A DNA stretch of 64,000 nucleotides from an uncultured Paraprevotella sp. (GTDB lineage Bacteria; Bacteroidota; Bacteroidia; Bacteroidales; Bacteroidaceae). Numbering within the stretch: the first letter of the stretch is position 1; each line of letters begins with the position of its first letter. Position numbers and translations under genes: made by a program. The notes beneath the pieces are model-generated. The model worked only from the letters and a program-made list of their open reading frames with translations. It did no database searches and was not told the DNA's origin. This document shows, in pieces, positions 12,475 through 21,135 of this stretch. The DNA lies in assembly GCA_944320775.1 (NCBI GenBank), contig CALUIV010000003.1:64253-128252 (forward strand), in the 5' to 3' direction.

Positions 12475-13800
12475 TTATAAAGCTTCTTCTATAATACATT
12501 TTATACCTTTGATCTTTTGACCACGGATATTCTGCAACACGCTTTTCAATTTTTTCCTGCTGACCGCAACGAAAGAATAGTGTTCTTTGACATCTATACG
12601 GCCCAGTTCCTCTCTTCCCAAGCCACCTATTTTCGAAAGAAAACCAACGATATCTACCTTATTGATTTTATCTTTCTTCCCTTTTCCTATATATAAAGTA
12701 ACCCAATTGGGCTGGACAGGAGCCGGCAACTTGCCATCAATACGATACGTCTCCACCTCATCACGGATATATTCCGGCATTTTTTCTTCCGGTCCAAGAA
12801 TCATGTAGGCACGTCCTTCTGCATCCCAACGAGCCGTACGACCATTACGATGAATATAAGCATCTTCATTCAAAGGTAAATGATAATGAATAATCTGTCC
12901 GATATCAGGAATATCCAGACCTCTGGCAGCCAGGTCGGTAGAAACAAACACATTGCAAGACCCGTTGCAGAATTTGTACAGCGCACGTTCACGATCTTTC
13001 TGCTCCATACCTCCATGGAACAATTCACAATAGATACCGCGCTGCTTTAAATAATTCCCGACACGCTCCACACTCTCCCGATAATTCACAAACACCAGAC
13101 TACTTGTAGCTCCCGACTTCCGGATCAGTCGTTCAAGTGTTTCCAATTTGTCTTTCACCGGAGAGAATACTTGATAAAGGCTCACCCGATCAACAGTCTG
13201 TTCATCTTCTGAAAGATAATTCAATTTGACAAAATGATTGGGAGAAACAAAATTCGGAATTTGAGGTGCATCCGTAGCAGAAAGAAGAAAACGCCGTTTC
13301 AGTTTCGGTAATTTACTGATTACCTGACTCATTTCCTCTTGAAATCCCAATTCCAGACACTTGTCAAACTCATCAATGACCAATGTAGAAATGTTTTCAA
13401 CCGGAATATTTCCTTTCGACAGATGATCGTTCATACGGCCGGGAGTAGCAACAACGACCTGAGGCTGAACACTTCGTAATGTGCGATGCTCATCCATTGC
13501 TGGCCGGCCACCATAGCAACTGACCACCTTGTAAGCTGTTCCCATTGACTTAAACACCTGCTCCGTTTGCAAAGCCAACTCGCGCGATGGAACCAGAACT
13601 ACGGCCTGCACTCCTCCGCGAGCAGAATCAAGATGTTGTACCAAAGGAATCAGATAGGCCAAAGTCTTGCCGGAACCTGTCGGCGAAAGCAAAACCAGAT
13701 CATCCCCTTTCCGATAAGCCTGAATTGTCTCTTCCTGCATCGGGTTCAACGACTCGATGCGAAGTTTCCATAAAATTTCGTGTAAATCAATATTGTTCAT
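12475..13800 (-). CDS. DbpA-type DEAD-box RNA helicase
   Basis: A 441-residue ATP-dependent RNA helicase. Visible motifs are motif I SPTGSGKT, motif Ia PSRELA, TPGR, motif II DEFD (in place of DEAD), motif III SAT, and C-terminal helicase motifs STDLAARGLDIP and HRNGRTAR. A C-terminal RNA-binding domain of the DbpA type (about 365-440, with a VDIVGFLSKIGGL segment) suggests binding to 23S rRNA and a role in 50S assembly. The promoter -7 box ends only 4 bp before the ATG, so the transcript may be nearly leaderless. Confidence 0.92.
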   Translation of the reverse strand: MNNIDLHEILWKLRIESLNPMQEETIQAYRKGDDLVLLSPTGSGKTLAYLIPLVQHLDSARGGVQAVVLVPSRELALQTEQVFKSMGTAYKVVSCYGGRPAMDEHRTLRSVQPQVVVATPGRMNDHLSKGNIPVENISTLVIDEFDKCLELGFQEEMSQVISKLPKLKRRFLLSATDAPQIPNFVSPNHFVKLNYLSEDEQTVDRVSLYQVFSPVKDKLETLERLIRKSGATSSLVFVNYRESVERVGNYLKQRGIYCELFHGGMEQKDRERALYKFCNGSCNVFVSTDLAARGLDIPDIGQIIHYHLPLNEDAYIHRNGRTARWDAEGRAYMILGPEEKMPEYIRDEVETYRIDGKLPAPVQPNWVTLYIGKGKKDKINKVDIVGFLSKIGGLGREELGRIDVKEHYSFVAVSRKKLKSVLQNIRGQKIKGIKCIIEEAL

Positions 13801-13804
13801 AGAA

Positions 13805-13836
13805 CAAAGATAAGCAAACCACTGTAACGAAACAAA
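13805..13836 (-). promoter_or_regulatory. Helicase gene promoter (near-leaderless)
   Basis: On the minus strand, TTTG (13833-13836), a 20-bp spacer and TATCTTTG (13805-13812) give a full consensus. The -7 box is immediately adjacent to the ATG at 13798-13800, leaving almost no 5' leader. Confidence 0.75.
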
Positions 13837-13941
13837 TCAGGCTGCAAACAAATTCGAATTTTCTTATAACGCTTAAACGAATCTAAAAATCTGTCCAAAA
13901 ACTACAGCAATATTTAAAGTATATAGAACATCATGAAGAGG

Positions 13942-13973
13942 TTTGAACAGAGAAATAAAAATTCTTATTTTTG
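13942..13973 (+). promoter_or_regulatory. Tyrosine recombinase gene promoter
   Basis: TTTG (13942-13945), a 20-bp spacer and TATTTTTG (13966-13973) give a full consensus. The expected start is about 90 bp before the recombinase ATG, leaving a sizeable leader. Confidence 0.75.
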
Positions 13974-14072
13974 TAACAACAACAAAAACAAGAAAACTAA
14001 ACAATATGGACCTATAATTCAAGAAGAACATATTGCAAGTATCTCCCATCACAGAACACAACTACGGACAAG

Positions 14073-15080
14073 ATGAATTTTATAGACTTCTTCAAAATAG
14101 AAATAGCCAAAAAAGAACAATTAGGTAAAAAGAAAACAGCGACGAACTATAAGTCAACTTTAAAATCATTTACAGAGTTTCTTCGTTTAAAAAAACAAAT
14201 TAATAAAATAGAGTTAAATCAGATTACCTATGAACTTCTGTCAGACTACGAAATATATTTAACCAACGAACGCAATATTTCCAGAAACAGCAGTTCCTTC
14301 TACTTCCGCCAAATCAGAGCTGTCTATAAAAGAGCCTGCGCTGAATCGGAAACTTATACGGCCGACCCTTTCAGAAAAATCTATACCGGAGTAGACAAAA
14401 CAATCAAAAGAGCACTCGATTTGGAAACTCTCAGAAAAGTCATTGAATTTCTACCCAAAAACAAACATCTGGAATTCAGTAAAGATATCTTCATTTTCTG
14501 TTTTTTTGCTCGCGGCATGTCATTCATTGACTTTGCAAAACTAAAAAAACAGAATATTTCGAACGGTAGAATTAATTATTATAGAAGTAAAACACAAAGA
14601 TTTATATCAATAAAAATAGAACCACCTATGCAGGCCATCATCAACAAATACCAACAAAAAGACACAGATTATATCTTTCCGATTTTCCAGGGAAATATTC
14701 AGGAAGAACGTATCTACAACAATGCTCTACGTTTGTATAATTTGCATCTGAACCAAATCGGAAAAGCCATTCGAAAAGACATACACCTCACATCTTACGT
14801 TGCCCGACACTCTTGGGCAACAATAGCAAGAGCAGAAAATGTTCCAATAGAAATCATCAGTGAATCATTAGGACACAGTAATCAACAAACCACTAGCATA
14901 TACATCAAATCATTGAACAACATAGTTGCTGACTCAGCAAACAAAAAAATAATAAATAAACTAAAAAAAGAAAAGAAGCTCAAAAAGAACAATACCAATT
15001 ATGCTTACTGCTTTTATCAGGATTTCTATATATCAACGAGAGAAGAACAGATAGATTTTACATACACGCTCGAATATTAA
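14073..15080 (+). CDS. Tyrosine site-specific recombinase, candidate promoter invertase
   Basis: A 335-residue tyrosine recombinase. The N-terminal SAM-like core-binding domain covers about 1-105 and the catalytic domain about 110-290. Catalytic residues: R147 (ARGMS), K173 (SKTQR), R245 (YVARHSWAT), H268 (LGHS) and Y277 (TSIYIKS). Box II reads Y-V-A-R where phage integrases have H-x-x-R; as I recall this is usual in the Bacteroidales chromosomal invertase group. A basic, Tyr-rich C-terminal tail (300-335) is longer than I expect. All active-site residues are present, so the gene should be functional. It is about 4.4 kb from the inverted repeats upstream of the lipoprotein, whose inversion it may catalyse. 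I see no phage or conjugation genes nearby. Confidence 0.88.
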   Translation: MNFIDFFKIEIAKKEQLGKKKTATNYKSTLKSFTEFLRLKKQINKIELNQITYELLSDYEIYLTNERNISRNSSSFYFRQIRAVYKRACAESETYTADPFRKIYTGVDKTIKRALDLETLRKVIEFLPKNKHLEFSKDIFIFCFFARGMSFIDFAKLKKQNISNGRINYYRSKTQRFISIKIEPPMQAIINKYQQKDTDYIFPIFQGNIQEERIYNNALRLYNLHLNQIGKAIRKDIHLTSYVARHSWATIARAENVPIEIISESLGHSNQQTTSIYIKSLNNIVADSANKKIINKLKKEKKLKKNNTNYAYCFYQDFYISTREEQIDFTYTLEY

Positions 15081-15106
15081 AAAACAAAGAAAACTAATTT
15101 CTTCTA

Positions 15107-15128
15107 TAAGGGAGGATAACCTCCCTTA
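15107..15128. terminator. Hairpin after recombinase gene
   Basis: A 9-bp perfect stem (15107-15115 with 15120-15128) with a four-base ATAA loop lies between the convergent recombinase and transposase-like genes. AT-rich sequence follows, but no clean T run. Confidence 0.6.
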
Positions 15129-15201
15129 ATATTTATAGGGTTCAACAAGAATAAAAACACTTACAAGTATATTCATTTACAATACAGCAAGTATTAAGTT
15201 G

Positions 15202-16164
15202 TTATTTTTTATAATAATTCCAGAGATTTATTCTCGTTTTTTCCCATTCAGAAAACAAACTATCTGATTTACCACGAATCTCTAAAAAATAATAATAAAC
15301 AATTGATTTAACTATTTCATCAGAAGGAAAAGATAACCGAGATTTTATATATCTTCGGATTCTTTCCCCTAGTGGTACAACATAATCTAACTTACATATT
15401 TGTTTCCGTAAATTAAATGGTATCTTGAAAAATAGATTTAAATCTTCAAGGTTATCATTCCACAACCGCATCGCATAAGGATATATATTTCTCCAATGAA
15501 TATATAACAAATTTAATTTTTCCATAGCTTCGGTATTGTTTCGAGCTTCAAAAATATTTTGCATATCCATTCTATATGCCTCTCTATCGCCTGAAACAAC
15601 AAAATGGCATGAATTTCTTAATAAATTTAAAACATAAATTGGTCGACAAGATGACGGAAAGTAACACTTAAGACACTCTGGAAGTCCTGAAATCTGATCT
15701 GAAAAAAATAACAAAATATCTTCAACTCCTCTTTTTTTTAAACACTGAAATATTTCTTCGCAAAAATCTACATTTTCAGTCAGACTTGTCCACAGACCTA
15801 GCATTTCTAGCTGACCATCATCCCTTAGTCCCACACACAAACAAATTATTCGTTCAGTAATCCGACCATTATCAGATACTTTAAAAACTAAAGCATCTAA
15901 CCATACCACCCAATAAAAAGATTCCAAAGGGCGCTTCAACCAATCAGCAGCTTTTTTCTGTTGCACATTCAAAATATCAGCAATCACAGGCTCGGAGAAA
16001 TTCGAATATCCCATATGTTTTAGTTCATCTCGAATATCAGAGAGACTCATACCATTTGCATAACGAGAAATTACCAATTCTTCCAGTGAATGAATATTTC
16101 GTGAACACTCAACAGTACCCTTATCGGTTTCCTGCTCAAATATAATTTTATCATTTATAGCCAT
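15202..16164 (-). CDS. Degenerate Mutator/IS256-type transposase homologue
   Basis: A 320-residue protein clearly related to Mutator/IS256 transposases but shorter at the N-terminus (they are usually ~400 residues). The DDE core is recognisable: YWVVWLDALVFKV gives the first Asp (D90), FFSDQISGLPE the second (D156), and SRLSFPSDE (275-283) aligns with the conserved RGSFPSDD segment. The catalytic Glu expected about 14 residues before that, in the 'IESLNR' position, is Val/Pro (about V263-P264). The Cys/His of the usual QRCWVHK motif are also gone. No terminal inverted repeats or target duplications flank it. The frame is intact. It may be a decayed copy or a domesticated DNA-binding protein; its place between recombinase and phase-variable lipoprotein is suggestive only. 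Confidence 0.75.
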   Translation of the reverse strand: MAINDKIIFEQETDKGTVECSRNIHSLEELVISRYANGMSLSDIRDELKHMGYSNFSEPVIADILNVQQKKAADWLKRPLESFYWVVWLDALVFKVSDNGRITERIICLCVGLRDDGQLEMLGLWTSLTENVDFCEEIFQCLKKRGVEDILLFFSDQISGLPECLKCYFPSSCRPIYVLNLLRNSCHFVVSGDREAYRMDMQNIFEARNNTEAMEKLNLLYIHWRNIYPYAMRLWNDNLEDLNLFFKIPFNLRKQICKLDYVVPLGERIRRYIKSRLSFPSDEIVKSIVYYYFLEIRGKSDSLFSEWEKTRINLWNYYKK

Positions 16165-16180
16165 AATTATTGCAAAAAAT

Positions 16181-16218
16181 AAAGAATACGGAATTCTGTT
16201 AGAAACTCCGTATTCTTT
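16181..16218 (-). terminator. Terminator after coiled-coil lipoprotein gene
   Basis: A 12-bp perfect stem (16181-16192 with 16207-16218). On the minus strand it is followed by a T-rich run (plus-strand A run at 16174-16179). It separates the lipoprotein from the transposase-like gene. Confidence 0.8.
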
Positions 16219-16248
16219 TATCTAGACATTTTTAATTATGTAAATTTC

Positions 16249-19200
16249 TTATTTCAGACTTACAACAACCGGAACTTCCACTTCATAAGCCGTCTTTGAC
16301 TGATTAAGTGTCAAACCAGAAAGTTCACCCCACTTCGGTTTAGCAACTGTCATTTTAAGAGTTACCTTGTATTCTCCTGAATAAGTGTAATCCTGTCCCT
16401 TAGCGGTCAATTGAACAGTACCATTTGTATATTCAACAAGTCCATTCGGATCTTCAATAACGAATGTCGGCTGGCTCATTGCATACACGCTAAACGGATT
16501 ATTTGCAAAGTCATATTTAACATCTGCTGTATTTGCTCCATATGCAGCAACCTTACCATTCTCCCACAACAAACGTCCATCTTTATCCGTCCACTTAAAT
16601 CCAGTTAATGCTACCGGTGCAGTCTTACTTGTAATTGTAATCTGGCTATTGTTAACAACCAAATTTCCAGCCAAATCAGCGATAGACACATCATAAGTAG
16701 ACGTAGTAACATTGCTACCATAAGCAACTTTCACTTCCAGTTTGATAGCGGTTCCATCGTAAGAATCCTTATTAACAACAAACTTAGTCGTCGTAGATGA
16801 ACCTGTTGAACTATAATTTGCATTAGTAGTTGCGCCAGTAGTCGTCATCGTAACAATACCACCATTTGCCTTAATAGCTGTAATCTGATCATCAAAGTTA
16901 TCAAACAGAGTCTTGGCATCCATTTCGATAATCAAATCACCAACATGGGTATTGTTGTCAAATCGAGTAGCCATCTGTACTGTCTTTTGATCATTCCAGA
17001 AAATCATATCCTGACTCAATGAACCAGTTGTCGGATAATCAGTCTTTGCTATAGGAATTGTAATGGTATATTCTGTTCCTGCCAACGTACCTGTGCTACC
17101 AGTATTATCCTTCAATGTAATGTCAATATTTGCAGCATCTGACAATTCTGTTCCTTGTGCAATAGTTACAACAAGGCCATTAGTTCTATCAACGGTCACT
17201 CCAGCAGGAACTCCTGATACAGTACACATTGAACTTGCAAGCAACGTCTTTAAGTCATTCACTGACATCTTAAATGTATTAGCAATAGGAGCCAAATCGA
17301 TTGTAGTAGCTTTAGATGCTGCTGCAACATCCTTCCAACTATTGCCAATTGTTGCATGACTATATGAAACAACAGCTTTAATAACCTTAATGGTAACCAT
17401 ATCATTTGTCAGATACTTATACCCACCAAGAGAAACTGTAGCATCTACAGTAGCAGTCTTACCAATATTACTTGAGGCATTCTGGTCAGCAACACCAACA
17501 ACACCATTATCTATGGTAAATGCAGCCTTATCACCACCATCTAATGCATAAGACACAACAGAAGGGTCAATGCCGAATTCTGTCACCATATCGTCAACGA
17601 CAGTGTTTCCTGCATTATTCTTTCCTATCAATTTAAATCCTTCTTTCATGTCATATTTCTCTGCACTATTCCAAGCGAGTTCTTTTGTTCCGGTATAACT
17701 TGAAACAACCTGAACATTAGAAACAACAACATCTTTATGTGCAGCAAGGAAATAATCAGAAGCAACTTCTGTTAGATTCTGTGTTCCGTCTTCTGGATTT
17801 GCATTTTTGGGAGTTACACGTGCAGACAAACAATATGTACTATTAGAAGCTAAAACATCATTCTTTGATACAGTGAAAGCAACAACGCCACGTTCCAGAT
17901 CGCTCTTCGCTTCATTATATTCTGCATTCAGATAATTAGCAGCAGCTCTAGTATTTGTAACTTTATATCCTTCAAAAACAATGTTGTAATTCTCGGCAAA
18001 ATCCTTCGCAGCAGCAATTGGAGTAATACGGAAACGTACAACACTCGTCTTATTTTCTGTTACAACTTTATATTTACTACTTTCAGTAGGATCTGTAGGA
18101 TCAGCTACCTGAAGCGTATTGAAGCCTAATATTTTAGAAACTACACCACTACCTGAAGTAATATAATCTGGTTCATAAACAATGCTTTGAATCATAATAC
18201 TCAGCATTGCTTTCAGATCTTTCTCAAGTTCTTCTACCTCAGCACCTAGATCAGCAACATTCTGTTTTAAAGTTGCAAAATCGCCATTTTCTGCGAACTT
18301 AGCTTCTAAATCACTTACCTTACCTTCCAAGGTTGAAATTCTAGTCACTGCGTTAGCCAAATCTGAGGCACTAGCCTTGCCTGCAAGTGCAGTTTGTAAA
18401 GCATCATCTTTATAATTTTCTAAAGCCTGAACGCGAGAAACCAAATCGGTAAAAGTTGGATCGTTCTTCGTAATATAATTAGCCAACTTACCGTCTACAG
18501 TCTTTATTTGGTTTGCTAGCTCTGTGCTATCACTTGCCATCTCGGCAATTACTTTATCTAATTCAGTGGATATTTTTGCAGATAAAGTAGCATTCAATTT
18601 GCTTACTTCGGCATCTGTATAACCTTTCAAGGTTACCTCAAGAGTTTCAAGACTTGCAATACGAGTTTCTAAAGCGGCAATCTGCTCTCCAAATTTTGCA
18701 TCTTCAATAGCTTTCAAACTATTCAGAGCCTGAGCTAACTTATCATTCGTAGTTGCCAAAGTTCCTTCCAAAGTTTCAATTTTATTTTTAAGCGCGTCAA
18801 CATCTGCCTGAGAAGCATTACCATCCAACTGAGCCTTCAATTCATCCAACTCTGCTGACAGATTGCCCTGCTCTGTTTCCAATGCACTGATTTTGTCACC
18901 TAACTCGGTCTTAGCTGCATCCAAAGATGAAGCAACAGATTGATCAAGCTCATCAATAATTCCCTTCAGCTCGTTAAATTTAGACTCAACAGTTGCTGCA
19001 TCAGCCTTACCGTCGATACTAGCCTGCAATTCTGTAGTCTTGTTGGCGATTTCAGTCTTCAATGTTTCAATATCAGCAGCATTACCAGAAGCTAATGCCT
19101 GAAGATCTGCCACCTGCTTGTCGACAGCTGTCTTCAAAGCCTCAACTGAAGAATTGATTGCAGCAGTCAATTCTTCCTTAGAAACATCTAATTTAGAAGT

Positions 19201-19326
19201 AACACCATCAATCTGTTCCTGAAGATTTTTGATGTCGTCATCATAATCTGCACATCCGACAAATGCTGTAGACGAGGTCAATGCCAAAGCACAGATTACA
19301 GACACTTTAATAAACCTTTTTCTCAT
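16249..19326 (-). CDS. Large coiled-coil surface lipoprotein, likely phase-variable
   Basis: A 1025-residue lipoprotein. The signal peptide ends in a lipobox with C25 (TAFVGC), followed by ADYDDD, the acidic pattern that sends Bacteroidales lipoproteins to the cell surface. Residues ~30-375 are a long Ala/Leu/Lys/Glu-rich coiled coil with repeated heptads. A short SIVYEPDY segment (about 380-388) then leads into ~640 residues of Thr/Ser/Val-rich sequence that looks like tandem beta-sandwich domains. From memory this order, and especially the IVYxPDY hinge, resembles the S-layer-like phase-variable proteins of Bacteroides and Parabacteroides; I could not search. In this orientation I find no promoter reading into it. 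The invertible promoter 100-300 bp upstream faces away, so the gene should be OFF here. Confidence 0.85.
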   Translation of the reverse strand: MRKRFIKVSVICALALTSSTAFVGCADYDDDIKNLQEQIDGVTSKLDVSKEELTAAINSSVEALKTAVDKQVADLQALASGNAADIETLKTEIANKTTELQASIDGKADAATVESKFNELKGIIDELDQSVASSLDAAKTELGDKISALETEQGNLSAELDELKAQLDGNASQADVDALKNKIETLEGTLATTNDKLAQALNSLKAIEDAKFGEQIAALETRIASLETLEVTLKGYTDAEVSKLNATLSAKISTELDKVIAEMASDSTELANQIKTVDGKLANYITKNDPTFTDLVSRVQALENYKDDALQTALAGKASASDLANAVTRISTLEGKVSDLEAKFAENGDFATLKQNVADLGAEVEELEKDLKAMLSIMIQSIVYEPDYITSGSGVVSKILGFNTLQVADPTDPTESSKYKVVTENKTSVVRFRITPIAAAKDFAENYNIVFEGYKVTNTRAAANYLNAEYNEAKSDLERGVVAFTVSKNDVLASNSTYCLSARVTPKNANPEDGTQNLTEVASDYFLAAHKDVVVSNVQVVSSYTGTKELAWNSAEKYDMKEGFKLIGKNNAGNTVVDDMVTEFGIDPSVVSYALDGGDKAAFTIDNGVVGVADQNASSNIGKTATVDATVSLGGYKYLTNDMVTIKVIKAVVSYSHATIGNSWKDVAAASKATTIDLAPIANTFKMSVNDLKTLLASSMCTVSGVPAGVTVDRTNGLVVTIAQGTELSDAANIDITLKDNTGSTGTLAGTEYTITIPIAKTDYPTTGSLSQDMIFWNDQKTVQMATRFDNNTHVGDLIIEMDAKTLFDNFDDQITAIKANGGIVTMTTTGATTNANYSSTGSSTTTKFVVNKDSYDGTAIKLEVKVAYGSNVTTSTYDVSIADLAGNLVVNNSQITITSKTAPVALTGFKWTDKDGRLLWENGKVAAYGANTADVKYDFANNPFSVYAMSQPTFVIEDPNGLVEYTNGTVQLTAKGQDYTYSGEYKVTLKMTVAKPKWGELSGLTLNQSKTAYEVEVPVVVSLK

Positions 19327-19430
19327 AAATCAATAATTTTAATTAGAAAAACATGATGTATATTTCAAATTCGATCTCATTCTCTCAATCTCAATTTATC
19401 ACCCTATCCTATAATTAGACTACAACATAC

Positions 19431-19453
19431 TTTTTCTTTCTCTATGTAAGAAA
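19431..19453 (+). repeat. Left inverted repeat of invertible segment
   Basis: A 23-bp repeat whose core is CTATGTAAGAAA. Its reverse complement matches 19650-19672 at 22 of 23 positions. Confidence 0.85.
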
Positions 19454-19649
19454 GAGAAAAAACAAGCAGATAAACATTACGAACGAGTTTCTATCCCATA
19501 CAAACAAGCTAATAATACATATCATTGTATAAAATAAAGATTCCGTCAGAAATCAAAACAGAATTTCATAGCAAGTTATCGTGTTTTTTTTATAAGTTTT
19601 TTTGTTTTTTGTTTGGTGATTCAACTATTATACCTATCTTTGCATCGTA
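19454..19649. promoter_or_regulatory. Invertible promoter segment (OFF orientation)
   Basis: A 196-bp AT-rich segment between the two inverted repeats. It holds one full consensus promoter near its right end, pointing right, and T-rich tracts upstream of it. I find no TAnnTTTG on the minus strand here or between the left repeat and the lipoprotein gene. Inversion would put the -7 box next to the left repeat, pointing at the lipoprotein ATG with a leader of roughly 120 bases. Confidence 0.82.
19612..19642 (+). promoter_or_regulatory. Consensus promoter inside invertible segment
   Basis: TTTG (19612-19615), a 19-bp spacer and TATCTTTG (19635-19642). Transcription would begin about at the right inverted repeat and read rightwards into the terminator at 19721-19782. 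Confidence 0.8.
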
Positions 19650-19672
19650 TTTCTTACATAGAAAAAGAAAAA
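19650..19672 (-). repeat. Right inverted repeat of invertible segment
   Basis: The 23-bp partner of 19431-19453 in opposite orientation, with one mismatch. It contains TTTCTTACATAG. Confidence 0.85.
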
Positions 19673-19720
19673 CAGTCCCGAGAAAATAAGGGTACAGCAA
19701 TAAGTAAATAAATTAATTCC

Positions 19721-19782
19721 TATACCAATAAAAAACTCCTTATCAGGAATAAATCCTTGATAAGGAGTTTTTTATTGGTATA
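19721..19782. terminator. 25-bp perfect-stem bidirectional terminator
   Basis: Bases 19721-19745 and 19758-19782 are exact reverse complements, with a 12-base loop and a six-T run inside the 3' arm. This is unusually long. It insulates the nqr operon from the invertible promoter. Confidence 0.88.
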
Positions 19783-19798
19783 TATACTTTTCTAAAGT

Positions 19799-19838
19799 AA
19801 AAAAGGAACTTCCTTTTTCAATCGGAAGTTCCTTTTTT
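19799..19838. terminator. Terminator of nqr operon
   Basis: A 15-bp perfect stem (19799-19813 with 19824-19838) flanked by A and T runs lies 23 bp beyond the nqrF stop. It works for the minus strand and could also act on plus. Confidence 0.88.
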
Positions 19839-19860
19839 CTTTAATTATATAACAGACTGA

Positions 19861-21135
19861 TTAGCCACCGAAGTTGTCATACATAATGCTTTCCGGTTCA
19901 ACACCCAGACTGTCGAGCATGTTAACAACAGCTTTTGACATCGGGCCAGGACCACACATGTAGTATTCGATGTCTTCCGGAGCTTCGTGATTCTTCAAAT
20001 AGGTCTCGTAAATCACCTGATGAACAAATCCCGGAGTGTACTTCACACCAGCTGCATCTGCTGCTGGATCCGGACGGTCGAGTGCCAAATGGAAACTGAA
20101 ATTCGGGAAATCTTTCTCCAACTGCAGGAAGTCTTCCAAATAGAACACTTCGTTCAAGGCACGGGCACCATAGAAGTAAGACATCTTACGATCTGTAGTC
20201 TTCAAAGTCTTGGTCATGTGCATAATCTGAGCACGCAATGGAGCCATACCGGCACCACCACCAACCCACATCATTTCCTTCTTAGAGTTGAAAATTGGAT
20301 GGAAATCTCCATAAGGTCCACTCATGGTCACTTTATCACCTGGTTTCAACGTGAAGATATAAGAAGAAGCGATACCAGGCATGACATCCATAAAGCCCGG
20401 ACCCTGATCTTTCGGTTTGAACGGAGGCGTAGCGATACGCACGGTCAACATGAAACGGTCGCCCTCTGCAGGATAGTTGGCCATTGAGTATGCACGGATT
20501 GTTTCTTCCGTGTTCTCACACTTCAGACCAAACAAACCGAATTTTTCCCATGCCGGCAAATATTCCGGACCGATCAGATCCTTGTCGATGTCCTTATCGT
20601 AATCCATCTTATATTTAGGAATCTTGATCTGAGCATAAGAACCCGGGATGAAGTCCATGTGAGCGCCCTTAGGCAGCTGCACGATAAACTCCTTGATAAA
20701 AGTTGCGACGTTCTTGTTTGATATAACCTCGCACTCCCATTCCTTAACACCCATTACTGATTCAGGAACAGTGATTTCGAGATCGCCCTTAACCTTGCAC
20801 TGACAACCCAAACGCCAGTTGTCCTTGATCTGCTTACGGGTGAACTGACCTTTTTCTGAATCAAGAATCTCACCACCACCGGCTGGAACCTGACATTTGC
20901 ACTGACCGCAAGAACCCTTACCACCACAGGCAGAAGGCAAATAAATGCCCTGCTCAGCAAGGGTTGAAAGCAGACTGCCACCTTGAGCGACAGACACCTT
21001 CTTGTCACCATTAATAGTAATTGTTACATTGCCGCTTGGAGACAAATACTTTTTCGCTACGAGCAGAATGATCACCAAAAGGAGAATCGTCACGAGGAAT
21101 ACCCCAATGCTCGTAAAAATAAAATTCATATCCAT
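19861..21135 (-). CDS. nqrF: Na+-NQR subunit F, NADH-oxidising
   Basis: A 424-residue subunit that takes electrons from NADH into the Na+-translocating NADH:quinone oxidoreductase. An N-terminal membrane helix (about 6-27) is followed by a plant-type [2Fe-2S] ferredoxin domain with C70, C76, C79 and C111, the same positions as in Vibrio NqrF. A ferredoxin-NADP+ reductase-type FAD domain (RAYSMANYP, about 227-235) and NADH domain (GGGAGMAPLRAQI, YYMCGPGPM) come next. It is the last gene of nqrABCDEF, 18 bp after nqrE. Confidence 0.97.
   Translation of the reverse strand: MDMNFIFTSIGVFLVTILLLVIILLVAKKYLSPSGNVTITINGDKKVSVAQGGSLLSTLAEQGIYLPSACGGKGSCGQCKCQVPAGGGEILDSEKGQFTRKQIKDNWRLGCQCKVKGDLEITVPESVMGVKEWECEVISNKNVATFIKEFIVQLPKGAHMDFIPGSYAQIKIPKYKMDYDKDIDKDLIGPEYLPAWEKFGLFGLKCENTEETIRAYSMANYPAEGDRFMLTVRIATPPFKPKDQGPGFMDVMPGIASSYIFTLKPGDKVTMSGPYGDFHPIFNSKKEMMWVGGGAGMAPLRAQIMHMTKTLKTTDRKMSYFYGARALNEVFYLEDFLQLEKDFPNFSFHLALDRPDPAADAAGVKYTPGFVHQVIYETYLKNHEAPEDIEYYMCGPGPMSKAVVNMLDSLGVEPESIMYDNFGG

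Follow-up and report, generated by a model that had tools for sequence, protein, structure and literature searches.

A pair of inverted repeats encloses a promoter just upstream of a large lipoprotein gene in the window, the 64,000-nucleotide stretch of uncultured Paraprevotella DNA analysed here. Do these repeats bound a switch that turns the gene on and off by inversion, and which enzyme would operate it? The features on which the question turns are as follows.

16249-19326, minus strand: S-layer-like surface lipoprotein, 1025 aa, intact frame
19431-19453: left inverted-repeat arm, the putative gene-proximal recombination site, matching the right arm at 22 of 23 positions
19454-19649: putative invertible segment, 196 bp
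19612-19642, plus strand: Bacteroides-type promoter TTTG-N19-TATCTTTG, directed away from the lipoprotein gene (OFF)
19650-19672: right inverted-repeat arm, whose minus strand reads TTTCT-ATGTA-AGAAA (by eye, two half-sites around 5 bp)
19721-19782: long hairpin of 62 bases, 48 nt past the right arm (RNA fold -38.0 kcal/mol, z -11.6)
19799-19838: second hairpin, before nqrF (-21.3 kcal/mol, z -6.7)

Inverted repeats, promoter and lipoprotein

The arm coordinates given in the initial annotation proved exact, with 22 of 23 positions complementary and 196 bp between the arms. The inverted-repeat search that the annotation had proposed was run on the window and returned this pair with a score of 19, the sole pair scoring at least 14 with arms 60-900 bp apart. 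Dinucleotide shuffling of the 800-bp region (500 replicates, best score 16) and shuffling of the whole window (20 replicates, best score 15) never gave that score. The arms read TTTTTCTTTYTCTATGTAAGAAA, and the left-arm core TCTATGTAAGA is similar to TCTATGCAAGA of Paraprevotella relatives, whose arms, CTCT-ATGCA-AGAG or an ACGCA variant, also appear by eye as two half-sites around 5 bp. Half-sites spaced in this way are the expected core site of a tyrosine recombinase. An exact match to the 17-base arm core is present in the window's genome at these two sites only. Near-matches with up to three mismatches are not commoner than those of a control pattern (64 versus 87), and at this background level no further targets of the recombinase were seen in the genome; one candidate pair, on contig C16 (54863-54925), was inspected and dropped as a short hairpin.

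The consensus promoter was located inside the arms and on the plus strand, facing away from the lipoprotein as annotated. The same consensus has nine matches across the window, and at least one match arose in 23 of 2,000 shuffles of the 242-bp segment. When the segment is reversed in silico, the promoter comes to lie 135-165 nt before the lipoprotein ATG. In the drawn orientation, no TAnnTTTG box faces the lipoprotein in the 480 bp before the ATG, and a scan for sigma-70-type sites across 19300-19870 returned zero, in agreement with the earlier claim that no promoter reads into the gene in this state; a degenerate promoter may do so. The description of the locus as captured in the OFF state holds for the direction of the promoter and is limited to the orientation present in the draft assembly. 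Two features expected of an inverton are present: a promoter that lies upstream of a gene and is flanked by inverted repeats, and a site-specific recombinase encoded in the window (14073-15080).

The locus can thus be read, with high confidence, as an invertible promoter (inverton) that phase-varies an S-layer-like lipoprotein and whose arms are recombined by the product of 14073-15080. The recombinase would be made from its own fixed promoter and would act on the two inverted sites, turning round the DNA between them. As drawn, the promoter of the segment would fire rightward, toward the strong hairpin, and the lipoprotein would be silent (OFF), whereas in the inverted orientation it would read leftward, crossing the arm and then a leader of about 130 nt before reaching the lipoprotein gene (ON). 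Inversion in this strain, the driving of the gene by this promoter, the identity of the acting recombinase, and transcription and its termination are all predictions from the DNA. The hairpin at 19721-19782 has A and T runs on both strands and lies between the inverton and nqrF; it is perhaps a two-way terminator that stops the OFF-state transcript before nqrF, and the hairpin at 19799-19838 is perhaps the terminator of the nqr operon. A terminator scan reported neither hairpin by its own rules.

The putative target of the switch begins with a signal peptide and a lipobox-like CADYDDD region, followed by a coiled coil (approximately residues 30-374) and then beta-rich domains. In the predicted structure (mean pLDDT 71, pTM 0.35), long helices precede the beta domains. 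The first fold matches of this model in the PDB are the S-layer proteins SbsB and Sap, at TM scores of 0.08-0.13 with cadherins scoring nearly as well. The 28 matches from a profile search against solved structures seem to reflect the coiled coil and were set aside. In the homologue search, 276 stretches fit a pattern and 181 were confirmed, of which the best 80 were kept, representing 78 loci. Among these best 80 of 181, homologues are found in Paraprevotella, Bacteroides, Phocaeicola, and Prevotellaceae, many of them matching via the N-terminus alone. One S-layer homologue was found in the window's own genome, a 2.82-Mb draft assembly of 61 contigs that is 91% complete.

Related loci in Paraprevotella

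Comparative analyses of five other Paraprevotella genomes identified eight loci with an S-layer homologue, and all eight have a promoter between upstream inverted repeats, of the type TTG-N17-23-TAnnTTTG within the arms. Seven of these are in the OFF orientation and one (L024, the same locus as L035) is ON; with the window included, the count is eight OFF and one ON. Two matches from further genomes, G017 and G013, were left out as coiled-coil matches (E 2e-4 and 4e-4, 24% identity, residues 26-169), L034 was swapped for L025, which is the same locus with the full gene, and L019 and L028 were treated as one locus. The relatives include P. clara YIT 11840, Ca. P. stercoravium, and uncultured Paraprevotella, and in most of them the lipoprotein is homologous to that of the window over almost its whole length. 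They also have the same promoter type, a similar arm core, and a recombinase of the same group. They differ from the window in that the recombinase, if present, is upstream, and in four loci its frame ends within the inverton. The arm pair of L019, the closest homologue, is 13 bp only.

Genome G012 carries two paralogous loci in opposite states, L030 (OFF) and L035 (ON). Their segments align in reversed sense (95.5% of 287 columns and 98.5% of 197 columns), whereas the leader and gene start align in the same sense (96.6% of 148 columns); on the far outer side, 27 bases match at the arm and none further. A reversed segment beside a gene side in the same sense is what a past inversion at the arms would leave.

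These relatives also bear on a reading in which nothing inverts. In the drawn orientation, the outward promoter and the hairpin (z -11.6) would yield an RNA of about 130 nt ending near 19782, and the arms could then be a hairpin or a regulator site. However, this reading has to contend with the reversed copy in the paralogue pair and with the same architecture in eight loci, and no Rfam match at gathering score was obtained across 13000-21000; it is very improbable. The proposal of the initial annotation, that promoter inversion controls the lipoprotein, instead gains support at the sequence level from the eight relative loci, the reversed paralogues of G012, and a recombinase of the matching group.

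Two of the related loci have additional features. At L026 (1403-7449), a 1398-aa S-layer homologue is followed by a small lipoprotein-like gene and then by a 367-aa barrel-like gene, a layout closer to that of BT1926-1927 of Bacteroides thetaiotaomicron. The ON-state inverton of L024 (5930-6580) has a 605-bp loop that includes approximately 170 bp of additional DNA, with a second pair of inverted repeats near the boundaries of this insert. No literature linking Paraprevotella to an S-layer inverton was found by search. The available portion of one report (PMC8748976) lists P. xylaniphila as carrying a resistance gene that is controlled by an invertible promoter, and by that listing inverted promoters have already been reported in the genus.

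The recombinase and the cassette around it

The candidate invertase lies beyond the 3' end of the lipoprotein gene, 4.35 kb from the inverton and on the opposite strand.

13942-13973, plus strand: predicted non-invertible recombinase promoter TTTG-N20-TATTTTTG
14073-15080, plus strand: tyrosine recombinase, 335 aa, intact frame, likely invertase of the switch
15202-16164, minus strand: divergent IS256-family transposase-like gene with its N-terminal part missing, between the recombinase and lipoprotein genes and directly downstream of the latter

The recombinase matches PF13102 (1.6e-18) and PF00589 (8e-12). Aligned by eye with a XerC/XerA-type enzyme, it has serine in place of the first catalytic arginine and tyrosine in place of the HxxR histidine, and retains the catalytic K, second R, last H, and Y. 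The recombinases of the relatives, also by eye, have alanine or serine at the first catalytic arginine. In the IntCTnDOT subgroup, according to the available text of PMC8138268, the first arginine is weakly conserved, and in the CTnDOT integrase it is replaced by a later arginine.

Similarity and distribution point to this gene as the likely invertase of the switch. Its product is 42-47% identical to five enzymes encoded upstream of the S-layer genes of relatives. Among 18 genomes including its own, only the five S-layer genomes yielded recombinases that score 283-310 bits against it, all located beside the promoters, and the best match in each of the five is the S-layer-linked gene; in the 12 genomes other than the S-layer ones, the best score is 242 bits. 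Random placement would give this co-occurrence once in 6188, or once in 252 with the 10 other genomes that are at least 90% complete. A 39-recombinase tree separates the six Paraprevotella enzymes linked to S-layer genes from the remaining 33 at 100/98. This tree is a 42-row tree minus the long-branched L052, L071, and L121. In the 42-row tree, the six are placed at 84/97 together with L052, a Prevotellaceae recombinase that adjoins another S-layer homologue, and the Paraprevotella group is split from the Bacteroides S-layer group (Bacteroides rows only) at 100/100.

Alternatively, the arms could be sites of another recombinase acting in trans, with 14073-15080 serving something else. Three further weak recombinase matches are present in the genome, and L021, L024, and L026 have no adjoining recombinase, so that action in trans would be needed at those loci. 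However, the three matches have 23-28% identity and E values of 8e-6 or worse, the sole close relative of the recombinase in its genome is itself, and both the tree grouping and the co-occurrence tie 14073-15080 to S-layer invertons. An enzyme in trans is therefore an unlikely operator of this switch.

The position of the gene raises another possibility. In five of the six Paraprevotella genomes with the gene, the recombinase is upstream of the inverton and in the same sense; the window alone has it downstream and reversed. The segment might then be a relic, locked OFF after a rearrangement of the cassette in which the recombinase was turned and displaced and the IS256-like gene was inserted. 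The amino-acid composition of the recombinase, which was flagged as unusual, also fits such a history. Set against it are the intact frames (335 and 1025 aa), the arms matching at 22 of 23 positions, the promoter that fits the consensus, and a recombinase with its own predicted promoter, and a relic is accordingly quite unlikely. Overall, the switch is very probably working, or was recently.

The surroundings of the cassette vary. The G+C contents of the recombinase (32.7%), IS256-like (31.9%), and lipoprotein (38.6%) genes compare with 43.5 and 46.2% in the flanking genes. The flanking helicase and nqrF genes are separated in G009 and G016 by about 4.5-7 kb containing other genes; the 14.5 kb examined in G015 and in G001 does not include the helicase, and in G016 the S-layer gene and nqrF are on different contigs. 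These comparisons indicate that the cassette is at different places in different species. The IS256-like gene matches NF033543 (4e-55) from profile position 58 and a Pfam profile from position 97 of 379. It was considered as a conserved partner of the switch and rejected, as a search of 17 other genomes of the genus yielded no match; a contig scan sensitive to close relatives only was also negative. Contig C19 of the window's genome carries two weak fragments of a similar gene.

Four of the five upstream Paraprevotella recombinase genes, that of L019 being the exception, have their stop codon inside their own inverton:

L020, 8239-9309: self-overlapping recombinase gene
L022, 8395-9615: self-overlapping recombinase gene
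L023, 7396-8613: self-overlapping recombinase gene
L025, 7839-8921: self-overlapping recombinase gene

The last 21-22 codons of these genes consist of inverted-repeat arm and promoter DNA. In-silico reversal removes 12-14 C-terminal residues in three of the four and replaces the tail in the fourth, and the OFF promoter faces antisense into the recombinase gene. It is conceivable, if doubtful, that S-layer invertases are wired to their own switch in this manner, with inversion altering the C-terminus and the OFF promoter antisense to the gene. If so, the rates of OFF-to-ON and ON-to-OFF switching could differ, and the window cassette, with its turned recombinase, would be a natural uncoupled control. 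The displaced recombinase and the self-overlapping genes of the relatives together allow a test of whether wiring in cis sets the switching bias. Separately, protein-level selection on the recombinase tail was considered and is unsupported, as non-synonymous changes affect 6 of 7 variable codons in the tail versus 194 of 302 in the body, numbers too small to distinguish tail from body. Nothing on invertase tails altered by inversion was evident on searching the portions of the literature available.

Comparison with known surface switches

The BT1927 class comprises the phase-variable S-layer loci of B. thetaiotaomicron, namely BT1926-1927 and seven similar loci. Like these, the window has a linked tyrosine recombinase and, ahead of a gene for a large surface lipoprotein, a promoter enclosed by inverted repeats, and loci of both kinds are mostly OFF. 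According to the available parts of the published accounts, the S-layer of BT1927 is visible by microscopy, is ON in approximately 1 in 1000 cells, and guards against phage and complement (PMC12548429, PMC12578637), and BT1926 is a putative anchor with an OmpA-type barrel (PMC12578637). By analogy, the Paraprevotella lipoprotein may form an S-layer-like coat that protects against phage or complement. No OmpA or beta-barrel gene is found beside the lipoprotein gene at this locus, and the best match to a Paraprevotella barrel-like partner in the 91%-complete genome covers residues 264-342 (E 4.8e-5); given that no counterpart of BT1926 adjoins the gene, a true lattice is not assured.

At the protein level, four Bacteroides proteins with BT1927-type arms were used to stand in for BT1927. 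The first 45 residues are common to them and the lipoprotein (98.9% probability, E 1.2e-17), and the lipoprotein profile has no detectable similarity to the four beyond residue 45. The likeness would thus be one of export end and switch. In four of the Bacteroides S-layer-like proteins (L093, L058, L064, and L092), a collagen-like GxxGxxG stretch follows the 45 shared residues, at the position taken by the coiled coil in the Paraprevotella proteins. Near full-length Bacteroides homologues also exist, in B. salyersiae (L029, residues 1-1022, E 6e-77) and B. xylanisolvens (L033, residues 1-1004, E 2e-48), and no upstream repeat pair was found for either. Many homologues from outside the genus likewise yielded no repeat pair: among the best 80 of the 181 homologues, 26 of 63 distinct upstream regions have a repeat pair scoring at least 12, of which at least five look unrelated; 16 of the 80 entries have less than 300 bp upstream. 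L044 of Xylanibacter rarus has perfect 22-bp inverted repeats around a promoter facing away, 56-247 bp before the S-layer homologue, and no recombinase match at E 1e-10 was found at that locus.

At the DNA level, the arms of eight Bacteroides loci fit or nearly fit, by eye, the arm consensus CCGTTACCTABVRAGTAAC given for the BT1927 class in the available text of PMC12118408, whereas those of the window do not fit it and are of the TTTCT-ATGTA-AGAAA type. The TAnnTTTG box is absent from all eight Bacteroides invertons, and their ON or OFF state was therefore not counted. The recombinase gene stops 6-10 nt before the arm in seven of the eight, the other (L062) having too little upstream DNA. In contrast to this placement directly upstream of the inverton, the window recombinase is displaced and reversed, and it belongs to a separate group.

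Invertible promoters and tyrosine recombinases also drive surface genes in Parabacteroides distasonis (surface glycoproteins) and at the capsule loci of Bacteroides. Those invertons have other targets and other repeats than the window, the capsule repeats being described in the same source (PMC12118408). Overall, the kind of switch is known from Bacteroides, and what is new here is that the recombination site differs, the recombinase belongs to a separate group, and its gene is displaced. The different site and the separate group suggest that lipoproteins of this kind have been combined with more than one invertase, and the locus would extend phase-variable S-layer-like coats from B. thetaiotaomicron to Paraprevotella.
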